This document shows, piece by piece, positions 11,590 through 62,304 of a DNA stretch of 64,000 bases; positions within the stretch are counted from its first letter, which is position 1; every line of letters starts with the position of its first letter. The stretch spans positions 178,065-242,064 of the IMG/VR virus record IMGVR_UViG_3300032116_014939. One strand, 5' to 3'. A program made the position numbers and the translations under genes. The notes beneath the pieces were generated by a model. The model was not told the DNA's origin and did no database searches. It saw only the letters and a list, made by a program, of their open reading frames with translations. Source of the DNA: a virus.

Positions 11590-13440
11590 TTATCTTAATT
11601 CATTCAAATCGAATGTACGAACACCATCAACGATGATACGTCCATAGAAACGGTTGTTAACCATCTTCTTAGCGTAACGTGTCATAATACCCTTGATAGG
11701 AGTAAAGTTGAATGGGTTATACATTGTTGGAGTTAATTGTAATGGTACGTATGGAGCGTAGATATATCCAGTATCCAATAACGAAGTACCTTTGTGACCA
11801 ATCAACACAGTGTTTGGTGGGAAGTATGGGTCACGGTATACTTGGTAACGACCACTCAAAGTACCAACTCTTTCAATACCCATGTTGTATTGGTCTTGCT
11901 CAGGAGCCGCGTTTGATACGTGGAAGTATTCCAAGTCATCAAAGATAGCACTGATTTCAGAAGATACAACAATCCAGTTAGCTCCACCTCTTAAAGTAGA
12001 CTTATGGATTTGAGCTGAAATTTGGTTGATTGCAGTAATCAACGTTTGATTCCAGTCCTTTTGAGTGTAAGGAGTTGATTGGTTGTTCAGACGCTTCCAT
12101 CCGTTGTAATCCCAACGTAATGTCCAAGCCGCACCTTTACGTAAGTCACGTAAGATTTCACGGTCAATTTCAGCTGCCACTTGCTCAGATAATAAAGCTG
12201 TTAATTCAGCTTCAGCATCGATGTTGTGGAACGCTGCAACGTCTTGAGCAAGTTCTGGAGACCATTGTGCTCTTAACTTTCTTTCAGTCACAGAAACTGT
12301 TACTGATTGAAGGTCGAAAGAAACTTCACCAATTTTGTCTTCAAATTCTAACTCTTGGTAACGCTTCCAATATGCAGTAACTGCTGTGTTAGTTGTAACA
12401 CCCGTTAAAGTAGTTGTGAAAGTAGTTCCAGTGTAACCATCAGGAGTAGATGCTCCACAAGAGATACATGCTGGTGTTTGTAAATCAACTTCTAAGTAGA
12501 TAACACCATCAGCACTACATACATCATAGAACGAACCTCCATTTCCTGGAGTTGCTCCACCTGGCCATGTTGTAGTTTTGCTAGTACCATATTCAACAAT
12601 ACCTTTACCGTATTTTTGTGTAACAACACGGAATAAAAGTGGTGTAGAAGTAGTAACATTACCACCAGATGCGTTAATTCTTGCAGCTAATGCAGAAGTT
12701 GGTAATAAAGTTAAATCAGAAAGGAATGTTTCAGTATCCATTTCTTGTCCATCAGGGCCAATTAACTTACCGTCACCTACTGATGTGAAACCAGACATTA
12801 CTAAAAGTAATTTTCTGTATTCACCTGAACCATATCCAGATACTACTAATGAACCGTTTGACCAAACTACTTGGTTAGTTGCACCAGTAACCCAATACCA
12901 ACCACCTTTTGAATAATCAAAAAGACCTGATGGGTTTAAACCTGGTTCATTTCCTTCATAGAATAAATCATAAAGGTTCTTTGGATACGCAGTTGAATCA
13001 GTGTAACCAGCATTTGGGTCACCAGGATAGTTTCCAGGAGAACCTACAGGTGCTCTGTGTCCAGCTTCTCCTGAAGCTCCTTGTGTTGGAGTTGCTGCAG
13101 AATAACCTTGAATTTGAGGTACAAAGTAGAACAATTTACCGATTGGTAAGTTCATAGCTTGTACAGATACGATTTCGTTAGCTAATAATTTAGAGAACAC
13201 ACGTCTGATGATAGGGAATACCACAGTTTCGAATGAACCTGAATCAGCAGTTGAAGCCGCTTCGTTAATTAAGAATGATGCTTGGTTTTCATACAACTGA
13301 GCAACGTTTTCTTTTAGGTGGCCTCTAAGACCTTCAAGGAACCCTAATTTGTCCCATTTGTTTATAGTGTCTTCTTTGATAACTTTCAAGTGCTTAAGAC
13401 CGATGTTACCTACTAATCCACTTTCTAATAATGCTCCCAT
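11590..13440 (-). CDS. Major capsid protein (T4 gp23-like)
   Basis: This 616-residue protein is encoded in the head module beside scaffold and protease genes. Its N-terminal 60 residues are helical and end in 'SFLINE', followed by 'AASTADSGSF'. Cleavage after Glu60 by the prohead protease would match T4 gp23, which is cut after Glu65. Downstream segments 'FPIIRRVFSKLLANEIVSVQ' and 'DREILRDLRKGAAWTLRW' are typical of gp23-like HK97-fold capsid proteins. Codon choice is less AT-biased than that of neighbours (many GGT, GTA and CGT codons), as expected of a highly expressed gene. An insertion-like Gly/Thr-rich region occupies about residues 120-360. Confidence 0.88.
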   Translation of the reverse strand: MGALLESGLVGNIGLKHLKVIKEDTINKWDKLGFLEGLRGHLKENVAQLYENQASFLINEAASTADSGSFETVVFPIIRRVFSKLLANEIVSVQAMNLPIGKLFYFVPQIQGYSAATPTQGASGEAGHRAPVGSPGNYPGDPNAGYTDSTAYPKNLYDLFYEGNEPGLNPSGLFDYSKGGWYWVTGATNQVVWSNGSLVVSGYGSGEYRKLLLVMSGFTSVGDGKLIGPDGQEMDTETFLSDLTLLPTSALAARINASGGNVTTSTPLLFRVVTQKYGKGIVEYGTSKTTTWPGGATPGNGGSFYDVCSADGVIYLEVDLQTPACISCGASTPDGYTGTTFTTTLTGVTTNTAVTAYWKRYQELEFEDKIGEVSFDLQSVTVSVTERKLRAQWSPELAQDVAAFHNIDAEAELTALLSEQVAAEIDREILRDLRKGAAWTLRWDYNGWKRLNNQSTPYTQKDWNQTLITAINQISAQIHKSTLRGGANWIVVSSEISAIFDDLEYFHVSNAAPEQDQYNMGIERVGTLSGRYQVYRDPYFPPNTVLIGHKGTSLLDTGYIYAPYVPLQLTPTMYNPFNFTPIKGIMTRYAKKMVNNRFYGRIIVDGVRTFDLNELR

Positions 13441-15227: not shown

Positions 15228-15947
15228 TTATTTTTTTAAATAATCGGAAAGTCTTCCCATTAAATCAAGCGATTTGTTAACTGTTCTTGCAGCTTTCATT
15301 TCGTTTTCTTCTTGTAGGTTCTCTTCAAACGCAAATCTTCCATCAGGTTCAGTAAATAAATAAGCTCCTGGTGTTGACGGTGAAGATACTAAGTCAAAAC
15401 AAATTAATTCAAAATCATCTTGTACTTCATTTTGGTCACCTACTTTTTTTAAAGAACCTACCCCTCTTGATGATATACCTAACGTTACACCTAATCTTAA
15501 TAGGTTTGCTGCTTGGTCACCCTTTGTTGACACAATACCTCTTTCATGGAACCCTGGTGAGGTTAGAAGTAATAACTTACCTAATAGAACATTACCATCC
15601 CACCACATCTCTGTAATCATGTGTGATACTCTATCCAAATCTATTAACGAAGATTCAGGATGGTTAAGTTCAGATAAGGCAGTTTTTTTACCTATATAAT
15701 TTTTTATATAATTTTCAGATTCTCTCTTTAAAATTCTTTCAGGATATATTCTACCATTTCTATTTGGTGTGTTATATTTTTGTAGAACGGCATAAAACTC
15801 AAATGGTTTTGAATAATCTTTAAAGTCCCTACTTTCTTGTAAGAATGTTTGATTATGTTTTTCTGTTGGGGAAACATATCCCGCATCCATCTCAATTAAA
15901 ATACCTCTTCCTGTCTCTCTTGGGCCTAATATTTTATAATTTTGCAT
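15228..15947 (-). CDS. Prohead core serine protease (T4 gp21-like, S21 family)
   Basis: This 239-residue protein has the herpesvirus-assemblin-like phage protease pattern. A conserved N-terminal strand 'FYAVLQKYNTPNRNGRIYP' is followed by the catalytic His in 'ELNHPES' (His96) and the catalytic Ser in 'GISSRGVGS' (Ser159/160). T4 gp21 cuts after (L/I)-x-E in scaffold, capsid and internal proteins. Its own 'FLQES' and 'NLQEE' segments could be self-cleavage sites. It is the inferred processing enzyme for the many tagged proteins of this window. A TATTTAT motif lies 16 nt upstream. Confidence 0.88.
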   Translation of the reverse strand: MQNYKILGPRETGRGILIEMDAGYVSPTEKHNQTFLQESRDFKDYSKPFEFYAVLQKYNTPNRNGRIYPERILKRESENYIKNYIGKKTALSELNHPESSLIDLDRVSHMITEMWWDGNVLLGKLLLLTSPGFHERGIVSTKGDQAANLLRLGVTLGISSRGVGSLKKVGDQNEVQDDFELICFDLVSSPSTPGAYLFTEPDGRFAFEENLQEENEMKAARTVNKSLDLMGRLSDYLKK

Positions 15948-48313: not shown

Positions 48314-49012
48314 ATGAAAGAATTATTAAATAACCCTGAAACTATAAAAAATTTTAAACTTTTACATTATATCCTATTAAGTAATGGTCTTACTCGTGTC
48401 AGTAATGACTTTTATGTTGATTACGACGGGAATGTTGATTATCACTTCTCACCTTGGACTAATAAAGGTGGAGCTTATGATATTATACCTAATAAATTAT
48501 TTGATTTTTTAGATAATTTTTTTGATTCTATTAAAGATGAAGTTTTAGATTCACTAGAAGGTGATGGTGACTCTAGAGCGACGGTATCATGTGAGTATTC
48601 AACAAGAGATAAAACTTTTACAATTGATGAAAGTATTCAAACTATGGGTTATGAATCATATTACCAAGAGTTTGAAATTGACGAAAAGGAATTACTTGAG
48701 GATATGGTTCAGTGGAAAGAAGATGGTAAACTTAAAATTAGAGTTGATTTTAGTGGTTCAGGTGATTCAGGTTATATTGATGACGTTGGTCTAATCAATG
48801 ATACTGATGACAAACATTATGAATTTACAGCGGTTTGGGAAAATAAGTTATACAACATTTTGGAGCAAAATCATGGTGGATGGGAAATAAATGAAGGTTC
48901 TGAGGGAACATTTATAATTAACAATGAAAACCAAACAATAGAATTAGATTTTCGTATGAATGTTGAACAATCTTCAACAGGTTACGAATTTAAACACCAA
49001 TTTGAGTTTTAA
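48314..49012 (+). CDS. Hypothetical acidic protein, 232 aa
   Basis: ATG 48314 is used because the TATTTAT motif lies 4 nt before it; the frame is open further upstream. Acidic, Tyr/Asp-rich beta-type protein ('GDSRATVSCEYSTRDKTFTI'). Unknown family. Overlaps the next convergent gene by 4 nt. Confidence 0.6.
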   Translation: MKELLNNPETIKNFKLLHYILLSNGLTRVSNDFYVDYDGNVDYHFSPWTNKGGAYDIIPNKLFDFLDNFFDSIKDEVLDSLEGDGDSRATVSCEYSTRDKTFTIDESIQTMGYESYYQEFEIDEKELLEDMVQWKEDGKLKIRVDFSGSGDSGYIDDVGLINDTDDKHYEFTAVWENKLYNILEQNHGGWEINEGSEGTFIINNENQTIELDFRMNVEQSSTGYEFKHQFEF

Positions 49013-49326
49013 TAAACCTGAATAGTTCTTTGCGGTCTGTCATCACCAAAGTCAGGACAGAAATAAACATTGTTACCATCGTGGTAAATTGTTCCACCAA
49101 CTCCATTAGGAATTTTGTGTTTTTCATGGAATTTATCATCCAAATCTATTTGGTGATTTCCATCATGAATAACAAAACATAAGTTTTCAAAACCACACTT
49201 ATATTGTTGGTCTTTGTTTTTATGTTTCATAAACTCGTCAAAAGACATTACGTATCTTGCATCTTCGTTAAGGTATCTTTTAACTATAAATTCTAATTGA
49301 CTTTCTGTAATAATAAACTTTTTCAT
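49009..49326 (-). CDS. Tagged hypothetical protein, 105 aa
   Basis: The tag 'MKKFIITESQLEFIVKRYL' ends in L-N-E/D at residues 19-21. The remainder is a small His/Asp-rich domain ('GFENLCFVIHDGNHQIDLDD', 'YHDGNNVYFCPDFGDDRP') that could bind metal. A TATTTAT motif lies 5 nt before the ATG in a string identical to the terminase promoter. Probably packaged cargo. Confidence 0.65.
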   Translation of the reverse strand: MKKFIITESQLEFIVKRYLNEDARYVMSFDEFMKHKNKDQQYKCGFENLCFVIHDGNHQIDLDDKFHEKHKIPNGVGGTIYHDGNNVYFCPDFGDDRPQRTIQVY

Positions 49327-49344: not shown

Positions 49345-51132
49345 TTAAGAATAAATTCCTTGACTATAAATTTTCCATTCTTTTTCTCTTCGGTCTCTAT
49401 GACTAAAATCTAAAAAGTTAATTTTAACTGAATTAGAATTTGGATTCATTTTTAAAGAAGTACTTAATTTTGGGGCCTTTGTTGTACAACCCGCAAATCC
49501 AACTTGATAACATAATGATGATAATGCATCAACTTGTTTTTGATTTAAATTAGGATATATTGCTAATAACTTACCTGCCAATTTATTTAAAGCAGTTTTT
49601 AAATACGTTTTAGCAATATCTTTTGTTATTGATGGGTCTTTAGGTGATACTTTTCTACCATCAGGGTAATAAACCGTACCATAACCAATTGTCGGGGTTC
49701 CAGATGGAACTCTACCTTTTAAACAACAATCAGATTCTCCTCTAATACATTTACCACCTTTAGCATCATCATAAACACAAGGAACAAAAAACTCAATATT
49801 ACCAACAAAATTTACAAGATTATCTGAAACACCTGTAGGTTTTTGATTGGTTTTCTCATTTTTTTTAGATATTTCACTTGAGGCTTTTTGAAGACCGGAT
49901 TTAATTGTTTTATTTATATCACTAACAACACCTCCCGAATCTGGTTTCATTTGGTCTTTTGGTTGACCCATAGAAGACCATTTATCCATAAAATTTGGTT
50001 CTTTATTTGATTGGTTAAAACCCATAGTTTTATTAATGTCATCAAAAACTGATTGCTCATTAATATTTGGTTTTAACACAGTCATTGCTTCAGGAAAATC
50101 CTTATTTAAAACATCCTCATCTTTATTTGTATAAGGAATATTCTGTAAAACATATCTAATTGAATTTAAACCTGAAATCTTTTTATCGTTAGAATCCAAA
50201 ACAACCCAAGGATGGTTTACAGTGGATGTTTTATCAAAAAGTTTTTGTTTATACTCTGTAAACTTTTCCCACACATCTTGCATTTTTTCATCATTCTCAG
50301 AATACTTCCAATATTTCAATGGTGACTTTTGTCTAAAATCAAATCTTTTAGCCTGAGTTTCTTTATCTATTGAGAACCAAAGTTTGAATAGATAATCACC
50401 GTCAATAACTAATGACTCCTCAAAGTCCTGAACATTATCCATAAAGTCTTCATATTCATCTGAAGAACCATAACCCATAACAGGTTCCACTAAACCTCTA
50501 TTATACCAACTTCTATCAAAGAAGTTTATCTTACCTTTCTCAATTTGATTTCTGTATCTATCCCACCAGTTCTTTCTTTCATCGGGTGTAGGAATACCAA
50601 GAGCAATAACTTTATAATATCTTGGATTTAAGTTTTCAGTAAACTTTTTAATTGTTGAACCTTTACCTGCAGAATCTCTTCCTTCAAAAACAATAATAAC
50701 AGTTTTACCTGTTTGTTTTAACCATTCCTGTAGTTTTAATAATTCAACCTGAAGGAAAAATAATTCTTTCTTATAAATGTCCTTATCTAATATTGATGGC
50801 TCTTCTTCAGGACTAACAACTTCTTTTTTAGTTTTTCTTTTTTCTAATGATTTAGTTAGTTGTTTGAAAAATTCAAAAATATTAATGTCTTTACTACCTT
50901 TTAATTTTAAAGTTTTTAAAATACCTCTTGTAACTAATCCAAAATCAACTAAGCCATCTTTTGAATATTCTTCAATCTTATTAATGAATTTTTGAATTTG
51001 AGCACTATATACTTTGTTATCTTTTAAAACCGCAACAAGAGATTTAACCTCAGGGCTATACTTTGGTTTGTCAGCTTCTGTCAAACCCATTATGTTTTTC
51101 ATCTTACTAACTTCAGTTAATAAATTCCTCAT
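49345..51132 (-). CDS. Polyphosphate kinase 2 fused to a GH24-type lysozyme, tagged
   Basis: A 595-residue protein with four parts. (1) Leader 'MRNLLTEVSKMKNIMGLTEA', the second tag type with an L-T-E/A site at residue 19. (2) PPK2 domain, about 120-335: Walker A 'GRDSAGKG' (151-158), 'INFFDRSWYNRG' (Walker B and Arg lid area), 'YLFKLWFSIDKETQAKRF' and 'PWVVLDSNDKK'. PPK2 enzymes move phosphate between polyphosphate and nucleotides. (3) Low-complexity linker holding an I-N-E/Q site at residues 357-360. (4) GH24 lysozyme-like domain, about 435-595: 'IEFFVPCVYDD' with candidate catalytic Glu447, 'TPTIGYGTVYYPDG' and 'QKQVDALSSLCYQVG'. Protease cutting in the linker would release kinase and lysozyme. 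TATTTAT lies 4 nt upstream. Confidence 0.82.
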   Translation of the reverse strand: MRNLLTEVSKMKNIMGLTEADKPKYSPEVKSLVAVLKDNKVYSAQIQKFINKIEEYSKDGLVDFGLVTRGILKTLKLKGSKDINIFEFFKQLTKSLEKRKTKKEVVSPEEEPSILDKDIYKKELFFLQVELLKLQEWLKQTGKTVIIVFEGRDSAGKGSTIKKFTENLNPRYYKVIALGIPTPDERKNWWDRYRNQIEKGKINFFDRSWYNRGLVEPVMGYGSSDEYEDFMDNVQDFEESLVIDGDYLFKLWFSIDKETQAKRFDFRQKSPLKYWKYSENDEKMQDVWEKFTEYKQKLFDKTSTVNHPWVVLDSNDKKISGLNSIRYVLQNIPYTNKDEDVLNKDFPEAMTVLKPNINEQSVFDDINKTMGFNQSNKEPNFMDKWSSMGQPKDQMKPDSGGVVSDINKTIKSGLQKASSEISKKNEKTNQKPTGVSDNLVNFVGNIEFFVPCVYDDAKGGKCIRGESDCCLKGRVPSGTPTIGYGTVYYPDGRKVSPKDPSITKDIAKTYLKTALNKLAGKLLAIYPNLNQKQVDALSSLCYQVGFAGCTTKAPKLSTSLKMNPNSNSVKINFLDFSHRDRREKEWKIYSQGIYS

Positions 51133-51329: not shown

Positions 51330-52154
51330 ATGAAAAACACAGAAACTTACAACGAGTTAGTTCAAAAGATGAGAACATTCTTCCAAAACAAAGGTTTTAA
51401 AGAAGTTCCAACTCAATCAAGATTATCAATCTTGGCGGCGTGTGAAAATCCACACTCAATAACAACATTCAATTATCAAGGAGAAGTATGGCCACTACCA
51501 CAGACGGGTCAAATGTGGTTAGAATACGAACTTCTTAAGAATCCTGAATGGAACGGTGTCTATTGTATTTCAACGTCTTATAGACAAGAAAAAGACCCAA
51601 TTCCAGGTCGTCACGAAATGATTTTTCCAATGTTTGAATTCGAATCAAAAGGTGGAATGAAAGAAATGTTAAAACTTGAATCTGAACTTTTAGATTATTT
51701 AGGTTTTGATTCACCTGTAGAAGTTAACTACGATGATGTATGTGAAGAGTACGGTGGAGTTTCAATTTTAGAAAACGAACACGAAACAAGAATGTGGGAA
51801 GAAAAAGGTTCAGTCGTCTCACTTCAAAATTTCCCATACAGAACAAACCCATTTTGGAACATGAGAGAAAGTGAAAACAAAATATTCAACAAAGTTGATG
51901 TAATTCTTTACGGACAAGAAACAATTGGTTCCGCAGAAAGAAGTTCTAACGTAGAAGAAATGAAAAATAACTTCTACACAATAGAAAATGGAAAATATTC
52001 TGAAAAACTTTTTGAACTATTCGGAAAAGAAAGAGTTGAGAAGGAATTAGAAGAATTCTTATCTCATGATTTCTTCCCAAGATTTGGTGGTGGGATTGGG
52101 ATGACCCGTTTAGCAAGAGCTTACGAACTACTACAACAAGAAGTAACAGTATAA
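51330..52154 (+). CDS. Stand-alone class II synthetase-like enzyme (Asx/AsnA type)
   Basis: This 274-residue protein consists of a class II aminoacyl-tRNA synthetase catalytic core with motif 2 'YRQEKDPIPGRHEMIFPMFE' and motif 3 'GGGIGMTRLAR'. Between them is 'YGQETIGSAERSSNVEEM', which matches the class IIb (Asp/Asn/Lys) insertion G-x-E-I-x-x-G-x-x-R. No anticodon-binding OB domain is present; full AsnRS is about 450 aa. Relatives without that domain include AsnA-type asparagine synthetases. It may ligate an amino acid to a non-tRNA substrate or make Asn. No Shine-Dalgarno; A-rich leader. Confidence 0.78.
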   Translation: MKNTETYNELVQKMRTFFQNKGFKEVPTQSRLSILAACENPHSITTFNYQGEVWPLPQTGQMWLEYELLKNPEWNGVYCISTSYRQEKDPIPGRHEMIFPMFEFESKGGMKEMLKLESELLDYLGFDSPVEVNYDDVCEEYGGVSILENEHETRMWEEKGSVVSLQNFPYRTNPFWNMRESENKIFNKVDVILYGQETIGSAERSSNVEEMKNNFYTIENGKYSEKLFELFGKERVEKELEEFLSHDFFPRFGGGIGMTRLARAYELLQQEVTV

Positions 52155-52430: not shown

Positions 52431-52847
52431 TTAATATCTTCTTGTTTTTCTTCTGATATTTTCAGCCATTGGCTTCATTGGTTCTTCATCTTCAATATCC
52501 ATATTATCAACTTCAACTTCAGAATCCATTTCTTCACCTGAATTCATTTTATTACTTTCATAATCTTGGATGATAGACTTAAGTTCCATCGCCTCTTGTT
52601 CTTTTCCTTCAGTTTTTCTTAAATGACGATAAAAATCCTTAAGATAATCCCATCCTGCTATACCTAAAAGTGCAATAGTTGTACCAACCATTGTAGCAAT
52701 CGCCCCACCTGTACTCATAGCCTCAGGATTAAAGAAGTTTTCAACCGCTTCATTAACTCCATTTTTTTTATTTCTTTTTGTTTCTTTAACTACTGTTTTA
52801 ATTAAGTTAGTTAATTCTGATTCTGACAATCTTACTACTTTTTTCAT
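52431..52847 (-). CDS. Tagged single-span membrane protein, 138 aa
   Basis: The tag 'MKKVVRLSESELTNLIKTVV' followed by K-E/T ends at residue 22. Residues ~50-72 form one membrane segment ('TGGAIATMVGTTIALLGIAG'), then basic and acidic stretches. Virion-packaged membrane protein inferred from the tag; function unknown. No TATTTAT motif in its short A/T-only leader. Confidence 0.62.
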   Translation of the reverse strand: MKKVVRLSESELTNLIKTVVKETKRNKKNGVNEAVENFFNPEAMSTGGAIATMVGTTIALLGIAGWDYLKDFYRHLRKTEGKEQEAMELKSIIQDYESNKMNSGEEMDSEVEVDNMDIEDEEPMKPMAENIRRKTRRY

Positions 52848-52865
52848 TTTTTTGTTTTTTTTATT

Positions 52866-53441
52866 TTATCTTGGAGCACCTCTATATGATGCATTTGGTT
52901 TAATTGGTACTACATAATCAGGGGTTCCTTTATAAGTACAAAACGGTCTTGATGTAATTACTTTTGCTAAATCGTTATTTAGATAATCTTCTTTAATTCC
53001 ACCTTTTCTTTTGAAAGGTTCACCAATAGCACCTAATCCTTTTTCAAATGCCGAGTTACAATTCCATCTGAATTTAATAGGTTCACTATATCTTTTTTTA
53101 TCTCTATTTAAAAAAGTACCTGTATAACCCTCAACGTCCGAACCTGTAATATCTTGGACTGTAAATTCAACTGTTGGTAAATTATTAATCGTTGTTATTC
53201 CAACTTGTTTTATTTTATAGTTTTCAGAAGTTCTTTTACCTTTAAACATCCCACTTTCACCTGTATATTTGTTTAAACCATAAGCATTAAACATAAGAAC
53301 TTCAGAACCTGTAAGACCTGATACTTCCTTACGAAATTGTTCAGGTGTTTTTGCAGTTAAATCATCGTTTTCTTTTATAACTTTTTTAATTAAATTAATA
53401 AGTTCATTTTCTGTTAATCTAATAACTTTTTCTTTTTTCAT
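52866..53441 (-). CDS. Tagged hypothetical protein, 191 aa
   Basis: The tag 'MKKEKVIRLTENELINLIKK' followed by V-I-K-E/N ends at residue 24. The rest is a basic, beta-rich domain ('LPTVEFTVQDITGSDVEGYT', 'EPIKFRWNCNSAFEKGLGAI') ending 'VPIKPNASYRGAPR'. Probably packaged; no enzyme motif recognised. A TATTTAT motif lies 21 nt upstream. Confidence 0.62.
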   Translation of the reverse strand: MKKEKVIRLTENELINLIKKVIKENDDLTAKTPEQFRKEVSGLTGSEVLMFNAYGLNKYTGESGMFKGKRTSENYKIKQVGITTINNLPTVEFTVQDITGSDVEGYTGTFLNRDKKRYSEPIKFRWNCNSAFEKGLGAIGEPFKRKGGIKEDYLNNDLAKVITSRPFCTYKGTPDYVVPIKPNASYRGAPR

Positions 53442-53462
53442 AAAAAATTCTTTTTTATCTAT

Positions 53463-53469
53463 ATAAATA
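53463..53469 (-). promoter_or_regulatory. TATTTAT late-type promoter motif
   Basis: Complement of ATAAATA, 21 nt before the ATG at 53441. Confidence 0.45.
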
Positions 53470-53525
53470 CAAAGAAAATTAACTTTTACACTTTTTTATA
53501 TCAAAAAAAAATAATATAATTGTAC

Positions 53526-53951
53526 ATGAGTAAAATTAAAAACGGTGATAATGTATCTGTTCATTATACAGGTAAATTAGAAGATGGTACAGTATTCGAC
53601 ACATCTTTAGCTGAGGGTAGAGAACCTCTGACAGTAACTTTAGGTCAAGGACAGTTAATTCCAGGTTTTGAAAATGGATTAATTGATATGACTATTGGCG
53701 AAATGAAAACAATTGAAATTGAGCCAGAAAATGCTTACGGAGATATTAATCCTCAACTTGTTAGTGAAGTGTTACTAACCCAAGTCCCTGAAGGTGTTAA
53801 AGCTGGGGATATGTTACAAGGACAAAACCAATTTGGCCCTGTTAACGTTGTAGTTAAAGAAATTAAAGAAGAAACAGTCGTTTTGGATATGAACCATCCA
53901 TTAGCGGGTAAGAAACTTATCTTTGATTTAGAAGTTGTGTCAGTAAATTAA
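53526..53951 (+). CDS. FKBP-type peptidyl-prolyl isomerase (SlyD-like)
   Basis: A 141-residue protein in full SlyD/FKBP order: 'GDNVSVHYTGKLEDGTVFDT', 'TVTLGQGQLIPGFENGLIDM', an 'ENAYGDINPQLV' flap-like insert, then 'VVLDMNHPLAGKKLIFDLEV'. These are prolyl isomerases and chaperones of the cytosol; the insert-in-flap domain gives chaperone activity. The His-rich metal-binding tail of SlyD is absent. It may help fold abundant virion proteins. ATG 53526 starts the domain; TATAATTG lies 3 nt before it. Confidence 0.88.
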   Translation: MSKIKNGDNVSVHYTGKLEDGTVFDTSLAEGREPLTVTLGQGQLIPGFENGLIDMTIGEMKTIEIEPENAYGDINPQLVSEVLLTQVPEGVKAGDMLQGQNQFGPVNVVVKEIKEETVVLDMNHPLAGKKLIFDLEVVSVN

Positions 53952-53972
53952 TACAATTTCATTTATTTTTCA

Positions 53973-54000
53973 AAACATCCCACTCATTGTGGGATTTTTT
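53973..54000. terminator. Intrinsic terminator
   Basis: The stem ATCCCAC / GTGGGAT followed by TTTTTT, after the FKBP gene. Confidence 0.75.
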
Positions 54001-54003
54001 GTT

Positions 54004-54011
54004 TATATTAG
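54004..54011 (+). promoter_or_regulatory. TATATTAG-N4-ATG promoter-like element
   Basis: One mismatch to TAnnTTTG, 4 nt before ATG 54016, the same spacing as other near-leaderless starts. Confidence 0.4.
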
Positions 54012-54015
54012 CATT

Positions 54016-54552
54016 ATGAATATCTTCTTTTTGGATTGGGATACTAAAAAATGTGCAGAATATCATTGTGATAAACATGTAGTTAAGATGATATTGGAAA
54101 CTGCCCAACTTTTGTGTGGTGCCCACCAAGTACCCACCAAGTACCGACCAAGTACCGACCAAGTACCGTACAAGTTATCACACAAAAATCATCCTTGTGC
54201 TATTTGGACTCGTGAATCACTTTCCAACTATCTTTATCTTTGTGACTTAGGACTTGAGTTGTGTAAAGAATACACTTATAGATATGGGAAACGTCATAAA
54301 TCTCAAGATGTAATTGAATGGTGTGTTACAAATAAGTTAAATATTTGTGACAAAGGTTTTACAGAACCACCAAAAGCAATGCCTGATGAATATAAAGTCA
54401 CAGACGTTATAGAATCATATAGAAACTACTATAATGGAGCTAAAAAAGATTTTGCTAAATGGAAAAATAGAAATACACCTGAATGGTTTATCCATTCATC
54501 AATTGTTGCATCTGAGCAACCAATTGTCCCTGTTGCATCTGAAGTACTCTAA
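54016..54552 (+). CDS. Conserved phage protein of unknown function with variable repeat
   Basis: The 178-residue protein begins 'MNIFFLDWDTKKCAEYHCDK' and continues 'HVVKMILETAQLLCGAHQ', 'LSHKNHPCAIWTRESLSNYL', 'TYRYGKRHKSQDVIEWC' and 'AMPDEYKVTDVIESYRNYY'. I recognise this set as a widespread phage protein family without a firm function; conserved His, Cys and Arg suggest an enzyme or nucleic-acid role. Residues ~36-52 are encoded by an 11-bp tandem repeat. It overlaps the next convergent gene by 65 bp. Confidence 0.75.
   Translation: MNIFFLDWDTKKCAEYHCDKHVVKMILETAQLLCGAHQVPTKYRPSTDQVPYKLSHKNHPCAIWTRESLSNYLYLCDLGLELCKEYTYRYGKRHKSQDVIEWCVTNKLNICDKGFTEPPKAMPDEYKVTDVIESYRNYYNGAKKDFAKWKNRNTPEWFIHSSIVASEQPIVPVASEVL
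54121..54173 (+). repeat. 11-bp tandem repeat inside a coding region
   Basis: Four to five units of the form CC(A/C/G)ACCAAGTA with small changes, encoding the 'VPTKYRPSTDQVPYK' segment. The unit is not a multiple of three. Confidence 0.7.
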
Positions 54553-54676
54553 TTCTACCCATTTGTTCATTATTTAATTCAAAATCCTCAGATTTAATTT
54601 CATTAATTTTATTATCCAAACGAGTGTGTTGTGATAATAAATTACTATACAATTGTGATTTTTGTTCTTGTGTCAT
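54488..54676 (-). CDS. Small coiled-coil protein, 62 aa
   Basis: 'MTQEQKSQLYSNLLSQHTRL' and 'QMGRIRVLQMQQGQLVAQMQ' form a regular coiled coil, a type I recall in phage genomes. It overlaps the end of the plus-strand neighbour by 65 bp, but its heptad pattern argues that it is real. Function unknown. Confidence 0.55.
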   Translation of the reverse strand: MTQEQKSQLYSNLLSQHTRLDNKINEIKSEDFELNNEQMGRIRVLQMQQGQLVAQMQQLMNG

Positions 54677-54714
54677 AAAATAAAAATAAAAATAAATTTA
54701 AAAAAATAAATGGA

Positions 54715-55062
54715 TTACCAATCAATTCCAGGCCCAAATTCCCTTTCATCAATAATATCGTTTATATATAATTCAATATTGGGTAACAAATCTTCTATCC
54801 TATATTGAATTTCCGCCCTGATATTATCAAAATCACTTCTATTTTGTGACTTGTAGATATCAACGTAAACTTTTATTTTATCTGATAGTGTGATATAATT
54901 AATTTTAATCTTATCAATAGATTGAACTTCGTGTAATTCATCCATCTCACCCATTCCCCATTCTTCAGATTCTTCCCTTAAACTATCTAATTTAGAATTT
55001 ATCAATCCCTGAATTAAATTTTTTGTTTTTTCTAATTGTTTTTGGTCTATGATATATTTCAT
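54715..55062 (-). CDS. Hypothetical phage protein with tag-like start, 115 aa
   Basis: The start 'MKYIIDQKQLEKTKNLIQGL' is a divergent tag-like helix. The rest includes 'ITLSDKIKVYVDIYKSQNRS' and ends 'IIDEREFGPGIDW', an ending I recall from a family of small phage proteins. Unknown function. A TATTTAT motif lies 5 nt upstream. Confidence 0.6.
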   Translation of the reverse strand: MKYIIDQKQLEKTKNLIQGLINSKLDSLREESEEWGMGEMDELHEVQSIDKIKINYITLSDKIKVYVDIYKSQNRSDFDNIRAEIQYRIEDLLPNIELYINDIIDEREFGPGIDW

Positions 55063-55067
55063 ATATT

Positions 55068-55074
55068 ATAAATA
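55068..55074 (-). promoter_or_regulatory. TATTTAT late-type promoter motif
   Basis: Complement of ATAAATA, 5 nt before the ATG at 55062. Confidence 0.5.
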
Positions 55075-55085
55075 CAAATGAAAAT

Positions 55086-55112
55086 AAAAAACCCCACTTG
55101 TGGTGGGGTTTT
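55086..55112. terminator. Intrinsic terminator
   Basis: The stem AAAACCCCAC / GTGGGGTTTT after the minus-strand gene ending at 55115. Confidence 0.8.
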
Positions 55113-55114
55113 GA

Positions 55115-55573
55115 TTACTTCAAGTTAGTATTGTCTTCGACAAAATTATCCACTTTATCTTTAAAAATCATATATGCCAAAGTTTGAACTCCAATAGCAG
55201 TTAAAAACTTTGGTATGTCTTTTTTAAATTCATTAGCTTGTTGTTTTAAACTTCTTTTTACTTTTTTAAGTAATTTTTTTAACCATTTAGGATTGGTTTG
55301 TTTCAATTCCAAAAAGTAAGCTTTAACTTCATCTTTATCTTTACCAACTAAAGAATTAATTGCGTTATCAATATTATCTTCAGGAGCGGTTTCCATCTTA
55401 GCTTCAAAACTTTTTTTATCAAGAGTTGATTCTGTAATATATGGTTTAACATCACCTGATTTTGTTTCAATCAATTTTTTAAAATTTTCAATAACAATTT
55501 TTTTACCACCTTCGTGTTGTTCACGAATTGAGTTTTTTACTTCTTCCGATAAATCGTTTAATAAATGTTTCAT
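55115..55573 (-). CDS. Helical basic protein with shared leader, 152 aa
   Basis: The leader 'DLSEEVKNSIREQHEGGKKI' resembles the start of the zinc-ribbon protein at 40342-40803. A Lys-rich helical body follows, with a weak hydrophobic C-terminal helix ('KFLTAIGVQTLAYMIF'). Perhaps a packaged membrane-associated protein. A TATTTAT motif lies 12 nt upstream. Confidence 0.58.
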   Translation of the reverse strand: MKHLLNDLSEEVKNSIREQHEGGKKIVIENFKKLIETKSGDVKPYITESTLDKKSFEAKMETAPEDNIDNAINSLVGKDKDEVKAYFLELKQTNPKWLKKLLKKVKRSLKQQANEFKKDIPKFLTAIGVQTLAYMIFKDKVDNFVEDNTNLK

Positions 55574-55585
55574 AGTTTTTTATTT

Positions 55586-55592
55586 ATAAATA
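55586..55592 (-). promoter_or_regulatory. TATTTAT late-type promoter motif
   Basis: Complement of ATAAATA, 12 nt before the ATG at 55573, within a TATTTATAAATA near-palindrome. Confidence 0.5.
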
Positions 55593-55594
55593 TA

Positions 55595-56299
55595 TTAAGA
55601 TACAATAATATTCACATCAACATATTGCCAGTTTCTGTCTATCATTGTTTTATATTGACTCAAATTTTCTATAATACAATCCCATACAGGGTTTTCAAAC
55701 AATTCATCATTATCATACTTTATGTCATAAACCAAATGAACCATATCATCATAATTTTCCATAAAATGATGAACCTTTCTAACAAGGTCATCAACAAATA
55801 TTTTTTCAATTTTAAAAGTGATGTCTATTCTAAAAGATTCACTACTTTCCCAATACATTTCAAAGTTATCATCAATAATATATTTTCCATATATTGTATA
55901 TATTATGCTGTTATTATCTCTGTATTTTATCTCAACGGTATCTGTATTTAAACATTTCCTTAATTTTTTTTCATTTTCTTTAGGAATATAAAACTCTCCT
56001 TTATTGAAATCATTTAATACTATAAGTGATGGACGTTGATATGATTTAATTGATACATTGGCAAAATTTCCAACAGTATCTAATTCATCATCAAGTAAAG
56101 AGCTGAGTGCATTGTATGAAAACGGAATGTTATTTGGATTTTTTATCTTTAAGATTGGAACCTTAACTAGTTCATTATCCAAATAAACTCCAGTATATTC
56201 ATCATCATGATAAATTATTAATCCGTGAATCTCTTTCGATTTAAAATAAACGGACATTACTTTAGAAAACGCCTTGTATTTGGGACGTAAATTACTCAT
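55595..56299 (-). CDS. Hypothetical protein, 234 aa
   Basis: A soluble alpha/beta protein with many Asp/Tyr ('HGLIIYHDDEYTGVYLDNEL'). It starts 3 nt downstream of the next gene's stop, so the two form an operon. No recognised family or motif. Confidence 0.62.
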   Translation of the reverse strand: MSNLRPKYKAFSKVMSVYFKSKEIHGLIIYHDDEYTGVYLDNELVKVPILKIKNPNNIPFSYNALSSLLDDELDTVGNFANVSIKSYQRPSLIVLNDFNKGEFYIPKENEKKLRKCLNTDTVEIKYRDNNSIIYTIYGKYIIDDNFEMYWESSESFRIDITFKIEKIFVDDLVRKVHHFMENYDDMVHLVYDIKYDNDELFENPVWDCIIENLSQYKTMIDRNWQYVDVNIIVS

Positions 56300-56302
56300 G
56301 TA

Positions 56303-56812
56303 TTATATTTCGTATTCGTCAGGAATTATTCTATCAACGTCTTCTTCTGTTGTATTAATCAATTGGTTCATATCTCTCCAATTAATACCATTGATTGATA
56401 ATATATGCACCATCGTCATACCTGAATTAAGTTTTTTATCACTCAATAATGCCCATTCATCCGCAGTATCATCTTCATACATTTTTAAATAATTGTACAA
56501 TATTGATATATCATTTTCATCGGTGACTTCTGGTATTATCACATCAACATAAACGTCATACATTTCTCCAAAGTAGTCGTCCGCCTCTTCAACATCTGTA
56601 ATTTGAACAGGAAGTCGGTACCTTTTAGACAAATCGTCAAGATAGAACTCAATACTACCCCCTAACTTTGAATCAACCAATGCTTTTAGATATGGATATT
56701 GGGAAACTTTTTGAATGAATTGTTCTAACCCACCAAAAAACTTGGAGATTTCCATAACAGAAACCCCTTTATCAATTAAACCAATTACTTTTTGTGAAAA
56801 ATTATCAGACAT
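56303..56812 (-). CDS. Hypothetical protein, 169 aa
   Basis: ATG 56812 ('MSDNFSQKVIGLIDKGVSVM') is chosen because the TATTTAT motif lies 5 nt upstream and would be part of the coding sequence if ATG 56827 were used. Acidic helical protein ending 'EEDVDRIIPDEYEI'; no family recognised. Confidence 0.6.
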   Translation of the reverse strand: MSDNFSQKVIGLIDKGVSVMEISKFFGGLEQFIQKVSQYPYLKALVDSKLGGSIEFYLDDLSKRYRLPVQITDVEEADDYFGEMYDVYVDVIIPEVTDENDISILYNYLKMYEDDTADEWALLSDKKLNSGMTMVHILSINGINWRDMNQLINTTEEDVDRIIPDEYEI

Positions 56813-56817
56813 ATAAG

Positions 56818-56824
56818 ATAAATA
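56818..56824 (-). promoter_or_regulatory. TATTTAT late-type promoter motif
   Basis: Complement of ATAAATA, 5 nt before the ATG at 56812. Confidence 0.5.
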
Positions 56825-56835
56825 CATTATAAAAC

Positions 56836-56870
56836 AAAAAACCCCACTCAGATGAATGGGGGTTTAAAAA
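56836..56870. terminator. Intrinsic terminator
   Basis: The stem AAACCCCACTCA / TGAATGGGGGTTT with flanking A and T, after the gene ending at 56877. Confidence 0.7.
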
Positions 56871-56876
56871 TTACTC

Positions 56877-57377
56877 CTATTCCTCGTCAAGATATCTACC
56901 AAGATTAACAGGTTCCACAAATGTCCCCTCAAGTTCGGACATTTCTTTCTTATACTCCTCAATAGTTTCAACAGAATAGATGGGAGCAAATAATGGACGA
57001 CGACTAAATGGAACGTTATCTCGGTTTTCCCATTCCTCCAATTCTTTTTCTATATTAGGGATTTGTCGTTTTACATATGAATATTTGTACCACTTCTCGT
57101 AGTCCTCACGTGTAGGAAAGAATTTAACGTCACCGTAGTTATAAATATTCAAATCAGGGTTGTTTGTATAAACATTAAGAATACCCTCATCACCATCATA
57201 CTGATTACATAACTCTTGAAGAGTATATGGGTTTGTTATACCTTTTTCTTCCCAACTTCTTCCATAGGAATTAATTTTACAGATATAAAAATATCCATCT
57301 TCAAAAGAATAAATTTGACTATTAATCTTGTCTTTTAATTCAACAAGTTGTTCTATTGTGTAATTAGATAAATCCAT
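56877..57377 (-). CDS. Hypothetical protein, 166 aa, from a near-leaderless promoter
   Basis: ATG 57377 ('MDLSNYTIEQLVELKDKINS') is used because TATATTTG lies 4 nt before it, exactly as at 47227. The first helix resembles H-NS-like or small helical oligomerisation segments. The rest is Tyr/Glu-rich ('EDGYFYICKINSYGRSWEEK'). Function unknown. Confidence 0.6.
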   Translation of the reverse strand: MDLSNYTIEQLVELKDKINSQIYSFEDGYFYICKINSYGRSWEEKGITNPYTLQELCNQYDGDEGILNVYTNNPDLNIYNYGDVKFFPTREDYEKWYKYSYVKRQIPNIEKELEEWENRDNVPFSRRPLFAPIYSVETIEEYKKEMSELEGTFVEPVNLGRYLDEE

Positions 57378-57381
57378 AGAA

Positions 57382-57389
57382 CAAATATA
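57382..57389 (-). promoter_or_regulatory. TATATTTG-N4-ATG promoter
   Basis: The complement reads TATATTTG, 4 nt before ATG 57377. Confidence 0.6.
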
Positions 57390-57410
57390 CAAAAAGTTTT
57401 TGATAAAACA

Positions 57411-57719
57411 CTAAAACTGCATGTTAATTCTCTTAATCTCTATTCCAAACTTATCCGTATAATATTTCTCAATACCTTCACCTACCGAATTTCCAAATAA
57501 AACACGCATCTTTTCAAAAAAAGAATAATCAATCCATAATGTTCCATTAAGATTTCTGTGGGCAATTCTTACAGGGTGACCATCACTATCAATATCTTTC
57601 CTACTAAAGAAATGAATATACCCATCCTCATCAACAGCCATTTCAACATCACCATAGGTGGCGTCCATGTACTTCTTAATAACCTCATTTAACTTACTCT
57701 CGGTGATAATATATTTCAT
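57411..57719 (-). CDS. Tagged hypothetical protein, 102 aa
   Basis: The start 'MKYIITESKLNEVIKKYMDA' is the Tyr variant of the recurrent tag. The body is a small alpha/beta domain ('EMAVDEDGYIHFFSRKDIDS'). The promoter string GGTATTTATTGTAATATG is identical to that of the gene at 60311, so the two genes share both tag and promoter. Unknown function. Confidence 0.62.
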   Translation of the reverse strand: MKYIITESKLNEVIKKYMDATYGDVEMAVDEDGYIHFFSRKDIDSDGHPVRIAHRNLNGTLWIDYSFFEKMRVLFGNSVGEGIEKYYTDKFGIEIKRINMQF

Positions 57720-57725
57720 ATTACA

Positions 57726-57732
57726 ATAAATA
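57726..57732 (-). promoter_or_regulatory. TATTTAT late-type promoter motif
   Basis: Complement of ATAAATA, 6 nt before the ATG at 57719. Confidence 0.5.
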
Positions 57733-57734
57733 CC

Positions 57735-58271
57735 TCAAAGTAAAAAACGGTGGAAGTTGGATACCCGTAAAGGAAATATATTATTTCCCTTTGTTCGATT
57801 ATCATCTTTCCATAAAGGTCTCAAGTTTTTATAATAACATGATTTTTTAACCCATTCTTCAGATTTATACAAAGATACTGGAATAATATGGTCATATTCC
57901 CATTCACCACGATTACCCCAAGTCATACCTTCTAAAAATCTTGATTCAATATAAGGTATAAACAATTCAACGGAAATACCAAGATATTCGGACAAAAAAC
58001 TATTTTTTTTATAACCTCTTTTACTGTTAATACTTCTAACTAAAGACCTTAAACTCTGAGTTGTACCATGAATAGGATTTTCTTTTTCTCGTCTACGTTT
58101 TCTCTTAACATCATACGCATTCAACTCCTTATGATATTCAGGGTCATTCTTTCTACGTTCCATCTTTTGAATATACCTACGTTTGTTATCACATAGTTTA
58201 CACTTCTTTCGGTTATCTCTAAAATCGGAAACGGGCTTACTAATATTACAACAATTACAAATACGTTCCAT
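57735..58271 (-). CDS. HNH endonuclease with N-terminal zinc finger, 178 aa
   Basis: Residues ~4-28 have two Cys pairs ('CNCCNISKPVSDFRDNRKKC'), then a basic helix. The HNH core is 'WGNRGEWEYDHIIPVSLY' (Asp-His), 'KNLRPLWKDDNRTKGN' (His/Asn positions). It closely parallels the next upstream gene, which has the same zinc finger and two HNH cores. Probably a free-standing homing-type nuclease. Confidence 0.8.
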   Translation of the reverse strand: MERICNCCNISKPVSDFRDNRKKCKLCDNKRRYIQKMERRKNDPEYHKELNAYDVKRKRRREKENPIHGTTQSLRSLVRSINSKRGYKKNSFLSEYLGISVELFIPYIESRFLEGMTWGNRGEWEYDHIIPVSLYKSEEWVKKSCYYKNLRPLWKDDNRTKGNNIFPLRVSNFHRFLL

Positions 58272-58276
58272 ATTTT

Positions 58277-59116
58277 TTATACTCCTCTCATTTCTTTTAA
58301 AAATTTATTATATCTATCAATATTTGATTCGTTAATTTTATTTGATTTACTAGCATTTTCATCTTTCCACAAAGGTTGCAGATTAGTGTGATGATTTAAA
58401 TATATTTTTTCTTCAAATGTATTTCCACAACTAATGGGAACAATATGGTCAAAACACCATTCACTACGATTGTCCCATGACATACCCTCCTTGAATAAAC
58501 TTTCAAAATACTTTAATCCGCTACTATAATCAATTCCAAGAATTTCTTCAGGAGAAAATTTACTTCTATATTCAGGGAATCCTGATAAAGAATATGAAAG
58601 TATTGAACCAATACTTTGTTTATATTTAAACAGTGGCGCTTTATCGTAATCCAATTTATCACTTTTACACCTGTTAGCAATAGTAAAAAGAGGTCGGATA
58701 TTAGTATAATGAGAGTTTTTTTCATAACTCTCTTGATTTTCAGATTTACTTAAAGGAAATATATGGTCAACTTCCCAATCACCATAATTATCCCACGACA
58801 TACCATCAACAAATTGTTTCTCCAAATGTTCTTTTAACATAATGGCATCACATCCAATAATATCTTCGTAAGTTTTTCCTTCAGGTTTAGAATAACCACG
58901 TCTTTTAAATTCATTTTTTAGTCGAGATTTTAATGACAATAAAATTTTATAATGTATTTCAAGTGACTTTCGGTTCTTTCTAATCTCAACCCTAGATTTT
59001 TTAGCACATTCTTTACATTTAGAAGACACTTTATTTTTAGCAAAATAATATTCTGACCTAGGTTTGCTTTCCTTACATACATAACAAACTTTTAATTCAT
59101 CCAATCTATGACCCAT
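58277..59116 (-). CDS. Double-HNH endonuclease, 279 aa
   Basis: An N-terminal zinc finger ('CYVCKESKPRSEYYFAKNK', then C-K-E-C) is followed by two complete HNH units. The first has 'WDNYGDWEVDHIFPLSKSEN' and 'HYTNIRPLFTIANRCKSDKL'. The second has 'WDNRSEWCFDHIVPISCGN' and 'HHTNLQPLWKDENASKSNKI'. Each follows a 'F-x-x-G-M-S-W-D-N' block, indicating an internal duplication. The adjacent single-HNH gene is a probable paralogue. TATATTTG lies 4 nt before its ATG, so early expression is likely. Confidence 0.82.
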   Translation of the reverse strand: MGHRLDELKVCYVCKESKPRSEYYFAKNKVSSKCKECAKKSRVEIRKNRKSLEIHYKILLSLKSRLKNEFKRRGYSKPEGKTYEDIIGCDAIMLKEHLEKQFVDGMSWDNYGDWEVDHIFPLSKSENQESYEKNSHYTNIRPLFTIANRCKSDKLDYDKAPLFKYKQSIGSILSYSLSGFPEYRSKFSPEEILGIDYSSGLKYFESLFKEGMSWDNRSEWCFDHIVPISCGNTFEEKIYLNHHTNLQPLWKDENASKSNKINESNIDRYNKFLKEMRGV

Positions 59117-59120
59117 AAAC

Positions 59121-59128
59121 CAAATATA
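59121..59128 (-). promoter_or_regulatory. TATATTTG-N4-ATG promoter
   Basis: The complement reads TATATTTG, 4 nt before ATG 59116; no clear TTG upstream. Confidence 0.55.
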
Positions 59129-59168
59129 ACGAAAAATGGGGTATTGGAAATGTGAGAAATAAAAAAAA

Positions 59169-59552
59169 TTATATTTCTTTTATAAATTGACCAACACCTA
59201 CACTACGAAAACCTTTACTTCTTAATTTGTTTTTAACTCTAACCGCATCTTCTCTTTCAAAACCAGCATCGGCAAAATCTAAAGGTGCCCCCACATCAAC
59301 TATAACGTATCTACTAGTAATACCAAATTTAACACAATCAGTATCAATATATTGTCTTAAATAATTACGGATTTCGTCATAAAAATTATTAGATATGGTT
59401 TTATTATTAGAATCAACGTCATCATTAGGTGTTGGGTTATTTTTGGGGACAATACGTTTGGCTGGACGTTTTTTTTCAGCTTCTGATAATTTAACAACCC
59501 TTTTAATCAATCTTGTTAAATCAGATTCAGTTAATCTTACAATTTTTTTCAT
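59169..59552 (-). CDS. Tagged paralogue A, 127 aa
   Basis: The tag 'MKKIVRLTESDLTRLIKRVV' followed by K-L-S-E/A ends at residue 24, then a basic, disordered linker. The C-terminal ~65 residues ('YVIVDVGAPLDFADAGFERE', 'RSKGFRSVGVGQFIKEI') match the next gene's C-terminus (V-D-V-G-A-P-L-D-F). The two adjacent genes are tandem paralogues with diverged linkers. The domain is unknown; packaged cargo inferred. Confidence 0.65.
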   Translation of the reverse strand: MKKIVRLTESDLTRLIKRVVKLSEAEKKRPAKRIVPKNNPTPNDDVDSNNKTISNNFYDEIRNYLRQYIDTDCVKFGITSRYVIVDVGAPLDFADAGFEREDAVRVKNKLRSKGFRSVGVGQFIKEI

Positions 59553-59557
59553 ATTAA

Positions 59558-59929
59558 TTAAAATTCGCTTGTTCTAACTTTTTTCGCATATTGACCTACA
59601 CCCCAACTATTAAAACCATGTTTTCTTAATTTATCTTTAGCTTTGTTTGCCTCACTTCTTGAAAATCCACAATCTTCAAAATCTAATGGAGCCCCAACAT
59701 CAAATACCAAATAATCTGCTAAATACTTATATGTAATACAACCCGCTTTAAGATACGGTTCCATAGCGTTAAACACCGGTTGTGTTTCAATATCTTTATC
59801 TGATGGTTTAGAATTAAATCCACTATAAAATGTGTCTTTTATCTTATCTTCCCAACTATCATTTTCTTTGATGACTTTCTTAACTATTTTAACCAAATCA
59901 GACTCGGTTAATCTTATAACTTTTTTCAT
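59558..59929 (-). CDS. Tagged paralogue B, 123 aa
   Basis: The tag 'MKKVIRLTESDLVKIVKKVI' followed by K-E/N ends at residue 22. The C-terminal domain ('YLVFDVGAPLDFEDCGFSRS', 'KHGFNSWGVGQYAKKV') is the paralogue of that at 59169-59552. A TATTTAT motif lies 14 nt upstream, and 5 bp separate the two genes, so they are probably co-transcribed. Confidence 0.65.
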   Translation of the reverse strand: MKKVIRLTESDLVKIVKKVIKENDSWEDKIKDTFYSGFNSKPSDKDIETQPVFNAMEPYLKAGCITYKYLADYLVFDVGAPLDFEDCGFSRSEANKAKDKLRKHGFNSWGVGQYAKKVRTSEF

Positions 59930-59943
59930 AATAATATTTTATT

Positions 59944-59950
59944 ATAAATA
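59944..59950 (-). promoter_or_regulatory. TATTTAT late-type promoter motif
   Basis: Complement of ATAAATA, 14 nt before the ATG at 59929. Confidence 0.5.
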
Positions 59951-59960
59951 CCACAAAATT

Positions 59961-60000
59961 AAAAAGGGGGTAGGGGGATTGGAACAACGGGAAAAAATTT
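59961..60000. repeat. Interspersed ~40-nt G-tract element, copy 1
   Basis: AAAAAGGGGGTAGGGGGATT followed by GGAACAACGGG and an A run, immediately past the stop of the minus-strand gene at 60000. Copies 2 and 3 are at 60796 and 61793. Confidence 0.75.
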
Positions 60001-60311
60001 TATACAAAAATAACATCCCACACCGCAGTAGAATCTCCGTTTTTGTCTTTAGGAAATAATAATGTAAACATGGTTCCAATCTTTTCTTCAATATCTGAAC
60101 CCTCGTCATAAGCATGATAACTACGACCACCTGTATTTAGTATAATTTGATATACAGGATATGTCTCATTTCTAAATTTCCAATTTTTTGTTTTTATCTC
60201 AACATCACCATTAAACCATTCGTATTCAGATAATAAGTTCTCAACATAATCCTTTAAGAAATTAACTTTCCTCATTTGTAAATTCTGAGACTCGGTGATA
60301 ATATATTTCAT
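60000..60311 (-). CDS. Tagged hypothetical protein, 103 aa
   Basis: The start 'MKYIITESQNLQMRKVNFLK' is the Tyr variant of the tag. The body 'WFNGDVEIKTKNWKFRNETY', then 'ILNTGGRSYHAYDEGSDIEE', is a small beta domain. Its promoter string equals that of the gene at 57719. Unknown function. Confidence 0.62.
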   Translation of the reverse strand: MKYIITESQNLQMRKVNFLKDYVENLLSEYEWFNGDVEIKTKNWKFRNETYPVYQIILNTGGRSYHAYDEGSDIEEKIGTMFTLLFPKDKNGDSTAVWDVIFV

Positions 60312-60317
60312 ATTACA

Positions 60318-60324
60318 ATAAATA
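60318..60324 (-). promoter_or_regulatory. TATTTAT late-type promoter motif
   Basis: Complement of ATAAATA, 6 nt before the ATG at 60311. Confidence 0.5.
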
Positions 60325-60334
60325 CCTTAAAAAT

Positions 60335-60361
60335 AAAAAACCCCTCACATCGGAGGGGTTG
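60335..60361. terminator. Intrinsic terminator
   Basis: The stem AACCCCTC / GAGGGGTT with an A/T run on the minus-strand downstream side; it ends the transcript of the gene at 60384-60764. Confidence 0.75.
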
Positions 60362-60383
60362 TATAATTTAATATTGTTTTACA

Positions 60384-60764: not shown

Positions 60765-60778
60765 ATTAATATTTTATA

Positions 60779-60785
60779 ATAAATA
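60779..60785 (-). promoter_or_regulatory. TATTTAT late-type promoter motif
   Basis: Complement of ATAAATA, 14 nt before the ATG at 60764. Confidence 0.5.
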
Positions 60786-60795
60786 CACCCCAAAA

Positions 60796-60837
60796 CAAAA
60801 AAGGGGGTAGGGGGGAATTGGGACAACGGAAAAAAAA
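60796..60837. repeat. Interspersed ~40-nt G-tract element, copy 2
   Basis: AAAAAAGGGGGTAGGGGGGA followed by ATTGGGACAACGG and an A run, immediately past the stop at 60838. Confidence 0.75.
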
Positions 60838-61140: not shown

Positions 61141-61145
61141 ATGTA

Positions 61146-61152
61146 ATAAATA
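61146..61152 (-). promoter_or_regulatory. TATTTAT late-type promoter motif
   Basis: Complement of ATAAATA, 5 nt before the ATG at 61140. Confidence 0.5.
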
Positions 61153-61175
61153 TAACAGAAATAAAAAAGGGGAAA

Positions 61176-61751: not shown

Positions 61752-61766
61752 ATACTTGATTTTTAA

Positions 61767-62300: not shown

Positions 62301-62304
62301 AATA

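Follow-up and report, generated by a model that had tools for sequence, protein, structure and literature searches.

Tagged internal head proteins that are cut by a prohead protease are already known. The internal wall hydrolases of the T7 gp16 type are peptidoglycan hydrolases which are ejected from the virion at entry. Class I enzymes of the polyphosphate kinase 2 (PPK2) family use polyphosphate to phosphorylate nucleoside diphosphates, and the reverse reaction is also possible. In T4, the prohead protease gp21 cuts after L/I-X-E, and an N-terminus of 10 amino acids is enough for head targeting (PMC9026906).

Here we analyzed a window of 64,000 nucleotides, which is the final 64 kb of a virus record comprising 242,064 bases. 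One gene of this window (49345..51132, minus strand) encodes a PPK2 and a lysozyme in a protein of 595 amino acids without an internal stop. The earlier note on this DNA had stated that no PPK2-lysozyme fusion was described, and the literature searched, with few subscription journals covered, contained neither a fusion of PPK2 with a wall hydrolase nor a jumbo-phage or phage-encoded PPK2. As far as these searches show, the novelty lies in this cargo, in a precursor that combines two enzymes and in the swapping of the hydrolase. Phage PPK2s have been little described, although relatives of this protein are encoded by at least 319 IMG/VR stretches.

Domains of the fusion protein

The earlier note had read the frame as a PPK2 joined to a GH24-like lysozyme; its coordinates were exact and both domains were matched in Pfam. 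The kinase domain (residues 115-338; 50119..50790, minus strand) matched PF03976 with E=1.7e-70 and 237.6 bits, against a curated cut-off of 22.3. The motifs GRDSAGKG (151-158) and FFDRSWYNRG (204-213), as well as TPTIGYGT (479-486) in the lysozyme part, lie at the residues given previously. The kinase motifs comprise Walker A residues D153 and K157, Walker B residues D206-R207-S208 and the class I signature N211, and these catalytic columns (Walker A/B and Asn) are invariant in an alignment of seven phage PPK2s. Class I PPK2s carry an Asn signature after Walker B (PMC8776046). The nearest structures found by Foldseek for the PPK2 domain (5llb and 6dzg) are both class I. Thus, the nearest structures and the Asn that follows Walker B both identify the fusion kinase as a class I PPK2, and the same two criteria rule out class II or III. 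With the NCBIfam equivalog model TIGR03707 it scored 267.8 bits, below the cut-off of 301.8; it is a member of the PPK2 family, but is not certified as a P. aeruginosa-type equivalog. A PHROGs search with the fusion protein returned no PPK2 family and only a weak match to thymidylate kinase. Class I membership would imply interconversion of nucleoside diphosphates and triphosphates with polyphosphate, in either direction.

The GH24 lysozyme domain (approximately residues 436-595; 49348..49827, minus strand) was recognized by Phage_lysozyme PF00959 (residues 476-549, E=7e-10; 39.8 bits against a cut-off of 22.3) and by alignment with nine other GH24 modules. Glu447, previously proposed as the candidate catalytic residue, was placed correctly and aligns with a Glu that is invariant in ten GH24 modules. 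E447, D456 and T481 are all present; the alignment shows an insertion between D456 and T481, which GH24 modules of three relatives (L011, L117 and L151) do not have between the Asp and the Thr. Because this insertion separates D456 from T481, GH24 activity is uncertain. Judged by sequence, the catalytic motifs of both the PPK2 and the lysozyme appear to be retained.

AlphaFold predicts a fold for both domains, and for parts of the PPK2 its confidence is moderate. Residues 355-429, in the linker, have pLDDT below 50, and the N-terminal tag forms a helix at residues 2-14 followed by a low-confidence stretch at 16-23. Comparison of the window with a relative (L005) gave 55 synonymous and 4 nonsynonymous codon differences in the PPK2 part, versus 17 and 13 in the lysozyme part. 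The codon differences show that the PPK2 is under purifying selection; by this measure the kinase is tightly constrained, with the hydrolase drifting or being replaced.

Recurrence of the fusion and exchange of its hydrolase

An IMG/VR scan with the fusion protein as the query yielded 25 loci. Four contigs were 100% identical, and others were 93 to 67% identical and kept the fusion. A second scan, for which aligned phage PPK2s served as the query, gave the relatives mentioned above, 80 of which were retained; this and a further scan also revealed a second fusion group (L121, L125, L127, L150 and L151). Altogether, 15 distinct sequences, which come from numerous IMG/VR contigs, have the fusion. 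On a tree of 58 PPK2 sequences, two changes between the fused and non-fused states were required, both forced by starred branches, and the fusion arose at least twice among phage PPK2s. The same architecture, which the earlier note had suggested seeking in other phages, was therefore found in many contigs and in two lineages. Among GTDB genomes, no cellular relative of the fusion was confirmed.

The earlier note had named an assembly chimera as what would refute its reading. A chimera or read-through is ruled out by the recurrence of the gene in many contigs and samples and by its two origins. A trivial artefact without function is extremely improbable, as the frame is open in all this material and the PPK2 is under selection.

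From the sequences, the C-terminal partner of a fused PPK2 appears always to be a wall hydrolase, of differing kinds. In lineage 1, to which the window belongs, there are several GH24 types (window, L008, L009, L011 and L017) and a SleB-type Hydrolase_2 (L013 and identical contigs). The module of L012 matched the tail-injection transglycosylase and related profiles of PHROGs (an assignment by these profiles alone; its fold model was weak and had no PDB match). Lineage 2 contains Phage_lysozyme2 (L121 and L127) and two GH24 types (L125; L150/L151). In other relatives, those of lineage 2, the PPK2 is followed by a separate, tagged hydrolase gene with an overlap of 1-14 nt (L085, L110, L112, L115/L117 and L130). 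The tags of such standalone hydrolases next to PPK2 (MKIIDILQKIILKE↓Q, MNLVKILRNIILE↓Q, MKIIDILQRLLNE↓Q and MKTINILQKILME↓Q, with candidate cleavage sites marked by arrows) end mostly in [IL]xE↓Q. Three contigs (L024-L026) have a tag, PNINEQ and a lysozyme, without PPK2; no PPK2 was found elsewhere in the 55 and 85 kb records of L024 and L025, which are fragments. A PPK2-only neighbor in lineage 1 (L016) ends in LKPKVN, followed by a stop. Kinase and hydrolase are not obligatorily paired, since in most relatives no hydrolase lies next to the PPK2. Hydrolase swapping behind a constant kinase would represent cargo exchange at work. Since relatives pair the kinase with differing wall-cutting enzymes, both enzymes probably travel in the phage head and are delivered when the phage infects.

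Among the swapped modules are some with matches to families of tail lysozymes and tail-injection transglycosylases, as would be expected if the fusion were a virion protein of the tail or neck in which the hydrolase served as an entry lysin and the PPK2 as a structural or regulatory passenger. In this genome, profile searches, which could miss one, detected no wall-hydrolase domain in the large tail proteins. We consider a tail or neck location very unlikely: the strong constraint on the PPK2 and its full set of catalytic motifs favor an enzymatic function, and the tag resembles propeptides of head proteins.

Tags, linker site and head genes

The N-terminal tag (residues 1-19, MRNLLTEVSKMKNIMGLTE↓A; 51076..51132, minus strand) is a candidate capsid-targeting propeptide, and the L-T-E19↓A20 site that had been noticed in it is present at that residue. 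The next gene downstream on the same strand (49009..49326, minus strand), which is kept 3' of the fusion in relatives, is itself tagged (MKKFIITESQLEFIVKRYLNE↓D). The tag site of the window's lineage reads GLTE, GLQE, GLEE or GLDE; the X position varies and L and E are constant, and the position of the Glu shifts with tag length. The PPK2s of phages of 634-735 kb, which are 43-52% identical, have other short tags (MPVYNFHKFINEE, MINNFIKFINEE and MISNYDNFMNES) ending in INE or MNE. The earlier note had also taken the residue after the scissile Glu to be Q, as in other tags. Q is indeed common at this position, but it is not universal, and A, S, N, T, E and D occur as well.

We examined residues 12-33 of 27 distinct phage PPK2 N-termini for [LIV]xE and compared them with 2000 shuffles. 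The motif occurred in 23 of the 27, compared with 13.2 +/- 2.5 in shuffled sequences, and none of the 2000 shuffles reached this number; five control motifs were not enriched. Two of the four N-termini that have no [LIV]xE in the tested stretch have one earlier, at 9-11. Genome-wide, [LIV]xE was enriched 1.73-fold at residues 9-40 over more internal positions (p=1e-10), which exceeds the values for nine other patterns tested; [LIV]xK was also up, 1.4 times. [LIV]xE is a weak motif that many N-termini have by chance, and it is no proof for any single protein. Few further members were detected with a hidden Markov model (HMM) built on the PPK2-type tag. With an HMM of the RLTE-type tag, 12 N-termini scored 8 or more versus 0 of 1216 internal decoys, and 7-8 of the 12 were its own training sequences.

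Such tags also occur elsewhere in the window. A run of small genes at 52431-63476 (minus strand) carries the tag MKK(V/I)(I/V)RLTESDLxxIIKKVIKE↓(N/Q), and its products are candidate head cargo. Two tagged proteins (MKKIKLKENEYIKLLKFVLSE↓A and MKNLDNLIKQVLKE↓Q) are encoded just ahead of the head gene cluster (8604-9579, plus strand). Two proteins of Flavobacterium phage immuto (L036:1676-2140 and L037:25061-25456) have a similar tag, MKKQILSEQFRRMQKLAGIITE↓S.

It is also possible that both enzymes act inside the infected cell and not from the virion, with the PPK2 supplying nucleotides, the hydrolase aiding lysis and the tag serving some other sorting or turnover. PPK2 could aid nucleotide synthesis during phage replication, the tags occur on many small proteins without known role, and the fusion lysozyme may have a role in lysis. 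However, with a separate, untagged endolysin (PG_binding_1 and GH19) in the genome, lysis does not obviously require the fusion lysozyme. For a purely cytoplasmic kinase, a wall hydrolase would be an odd fusion partner, and the tags end in a gp21-type motif. We therefore regard an intracellular role as rather doubtful.

A second candidate cleavage site, I-N-E359↓Q360 (residues 357-360; 50053..50064, minus strand), lies between the two domains as the earlier note had described, in a linker that is predicted to be disordered. Residues 357-359 are the sole [LIV]xE within residues 340-595. At a frequency of about 1.7% per position in this genome, a single match in so long a linker is not improbable, but its conservation exceeds chance. 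PN[IV]NEQ is invariant in 12/12 lineage-1 proteins, whereas the linker after it is about 45% identical on average (98% for the PPK2). Every fusion of lineage 1 has L(K/R)PN[IV]NE↓Q, and lineage 2 has [ILV]NE at the same place. The codons of the site vary (GAA/GAG, AAT/AAC) and its residues are fixed. The linker of a lineage-2 fusion (L121) is 44% identical over 95 amino acids to a standalone hydrolase (L110; two-sequence E 4e-28), and the similarity begins exactly at the end of the tag (INE↓TEGADPKNP versus LKE↓QEGSDPKNA). This similarity, the end of the PPK2-only neighbor and the three lysozyme-only contigs place the between-domain site at the expected tag end of the second enzyme.

Such descent from the tag of a standalone hydrolase accounts for the INE motif also if the fusion is packaged yet left uncut at E359, as a single bifunctional enzyme in which INE is a relic of the fusion event. 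This is unlikely: the P3 and P1 positions of the site are fixed while the remaining linker falls to 45% identity, the site sits in a segment predicted to be disordered, and the same gp21-type specificity works on T4 head proteins.

Genes that would serve cleavage of this kind are present in the genome, as the earlier note had supposed. A gp21-type prohead protease (15228..15947, minus strand; phrog_207, 3.1e-44), presumed to be the processing enzyme, has both catalytic motifs, ELNHP and GISSRG, aligned with those of T4 gp21. In the gp23-type major capsid protein (11590..13440, minus strand; PF07068, 6.9e-73), LINE↓A aligns with FLTE↓A, the site at which the T4 capsid protein is cut. These two genes lie with portal and large terminase genes at 11.6-21.2 kb, and the phage is a T4-like jumbo phage. 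When capsid proteins are compared, Flavobacterium phage immuto and Microcystis phage Mel-JY01 are the closest isolates (41-42% identity); a search for a proteome among the nearest isolates (Flavobacterium phage immuto) found none.

Several other genes of the window were noted. A tmRNA gene (30501-30895, plus strand) has a predicted tag peptide, AKLSTLGLIRTEEVTVA, of unusual length. A class II aminoacyl-tRNA synthetase-like protein of 274 amino acids (51330-52154, plus strand; tRNA-synt_2, 3.2e-13), too short for a full synthetase, is encoded next to the fusion, also in several relatives. The window further encodes a ClpA/ClpC-like protein of 687 amino acids with two AAA domains (26419-28482, plus strand) and a protein of 581 amino acids with long GPGGSGDKGK repeats at its start, which matched no known family (34397-36142, minus strand).

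Proposed role and comparison with known systems

Our preferred reading, which we hold to be probable on balance, is that the fusion is a capsid-targeted cargo precursor of two enzymes: cuts at E19 and E359 as the head matures would release a PPK2 and a wall hydrolase, to be delivered at entry. The tag would bring the precursor into the prohead, in the way in which internal proteins of T4 are led there by their capsid targeting sequences. The gp21-type protease would then cut after Glu19 and Glu359, removing the tag and parting the PPK2 from the peptidoglycan hydrolase, and both enzymes would be ejected along with the DNA. The hydrolase would open or remodel the wall, and the PPK2, in the cytoplasm, would catalyze phosphate exchange of nucleoside diphosphates with host polyphosphate, most likely making NTPs. 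Sequence comparison supports the targeting and cutting part well, although packaging, cutting, ejection and roles are all steps that we infer. A wider proposition, to which we give even odds, is that in a family of T4-like jumbo phages the virion holds a polyphosphate kinase and an exchangeable wall hydrolase as protease-processed cargo, jointly delivered before phage gene expression.

If packaged, the fusion would serve as a cargo precursor from which the head protease frees two enzymes, and an energy or nucleotide enzyme would be delivered with the genome. Host polyphosphate could then be drawn on as a phosphate store as soon as infection begins, together with the opening of the wall. The tag may also offer a sequence rule for predicting phage proteins that travel in the head.

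Like the T4 internal proteins (IPI-IPIII and Alt), the fusion has a short N-terminal propeptide ending in L/I-X-E and a gp21-type protease and gp23-type capsid protein in the same genome, and ejection with the DNA is proposed. The cargo differs, in that a PPK2 and a wall hydrolase share one precursor and are separated by a second site; the tag sequences also differ, and packaging of the cargo in this phage is a prediction. With the T7 gp16-type proteins it has in common a peptidoglycan hydrolase, here proposed to be virion-delivered at entry, but it is no T7-type core protein, a nucleotide enzyme is attached to it and it has a predicted protease release site. The kinase shares its fold, Walker A GRDxAGKG, Walker B DRS and the class I Asn with the class I PPK2s of Francisella (5llb/4yeg) and Sinorhizobium (6dzg), at approximately 43-45% identity in the fold comparison. 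In contrast to these, the phage protein has its own N-terminal tag and helical region (residues 1-110) and a fused wall hydrolase, and it scores under the TIGR03707 equivalog cut-off. Finally, the lysozyme resembles GH24 phage lysozymes and endolysins in its PF00959 domain, catalytic Glu and Thr and C-terminal RRxxE region, but it lies behind a PPK2, has a Cys-rich insertion between the Asp and the Thr, and is replaced by unrelated hydrolases in relatives.
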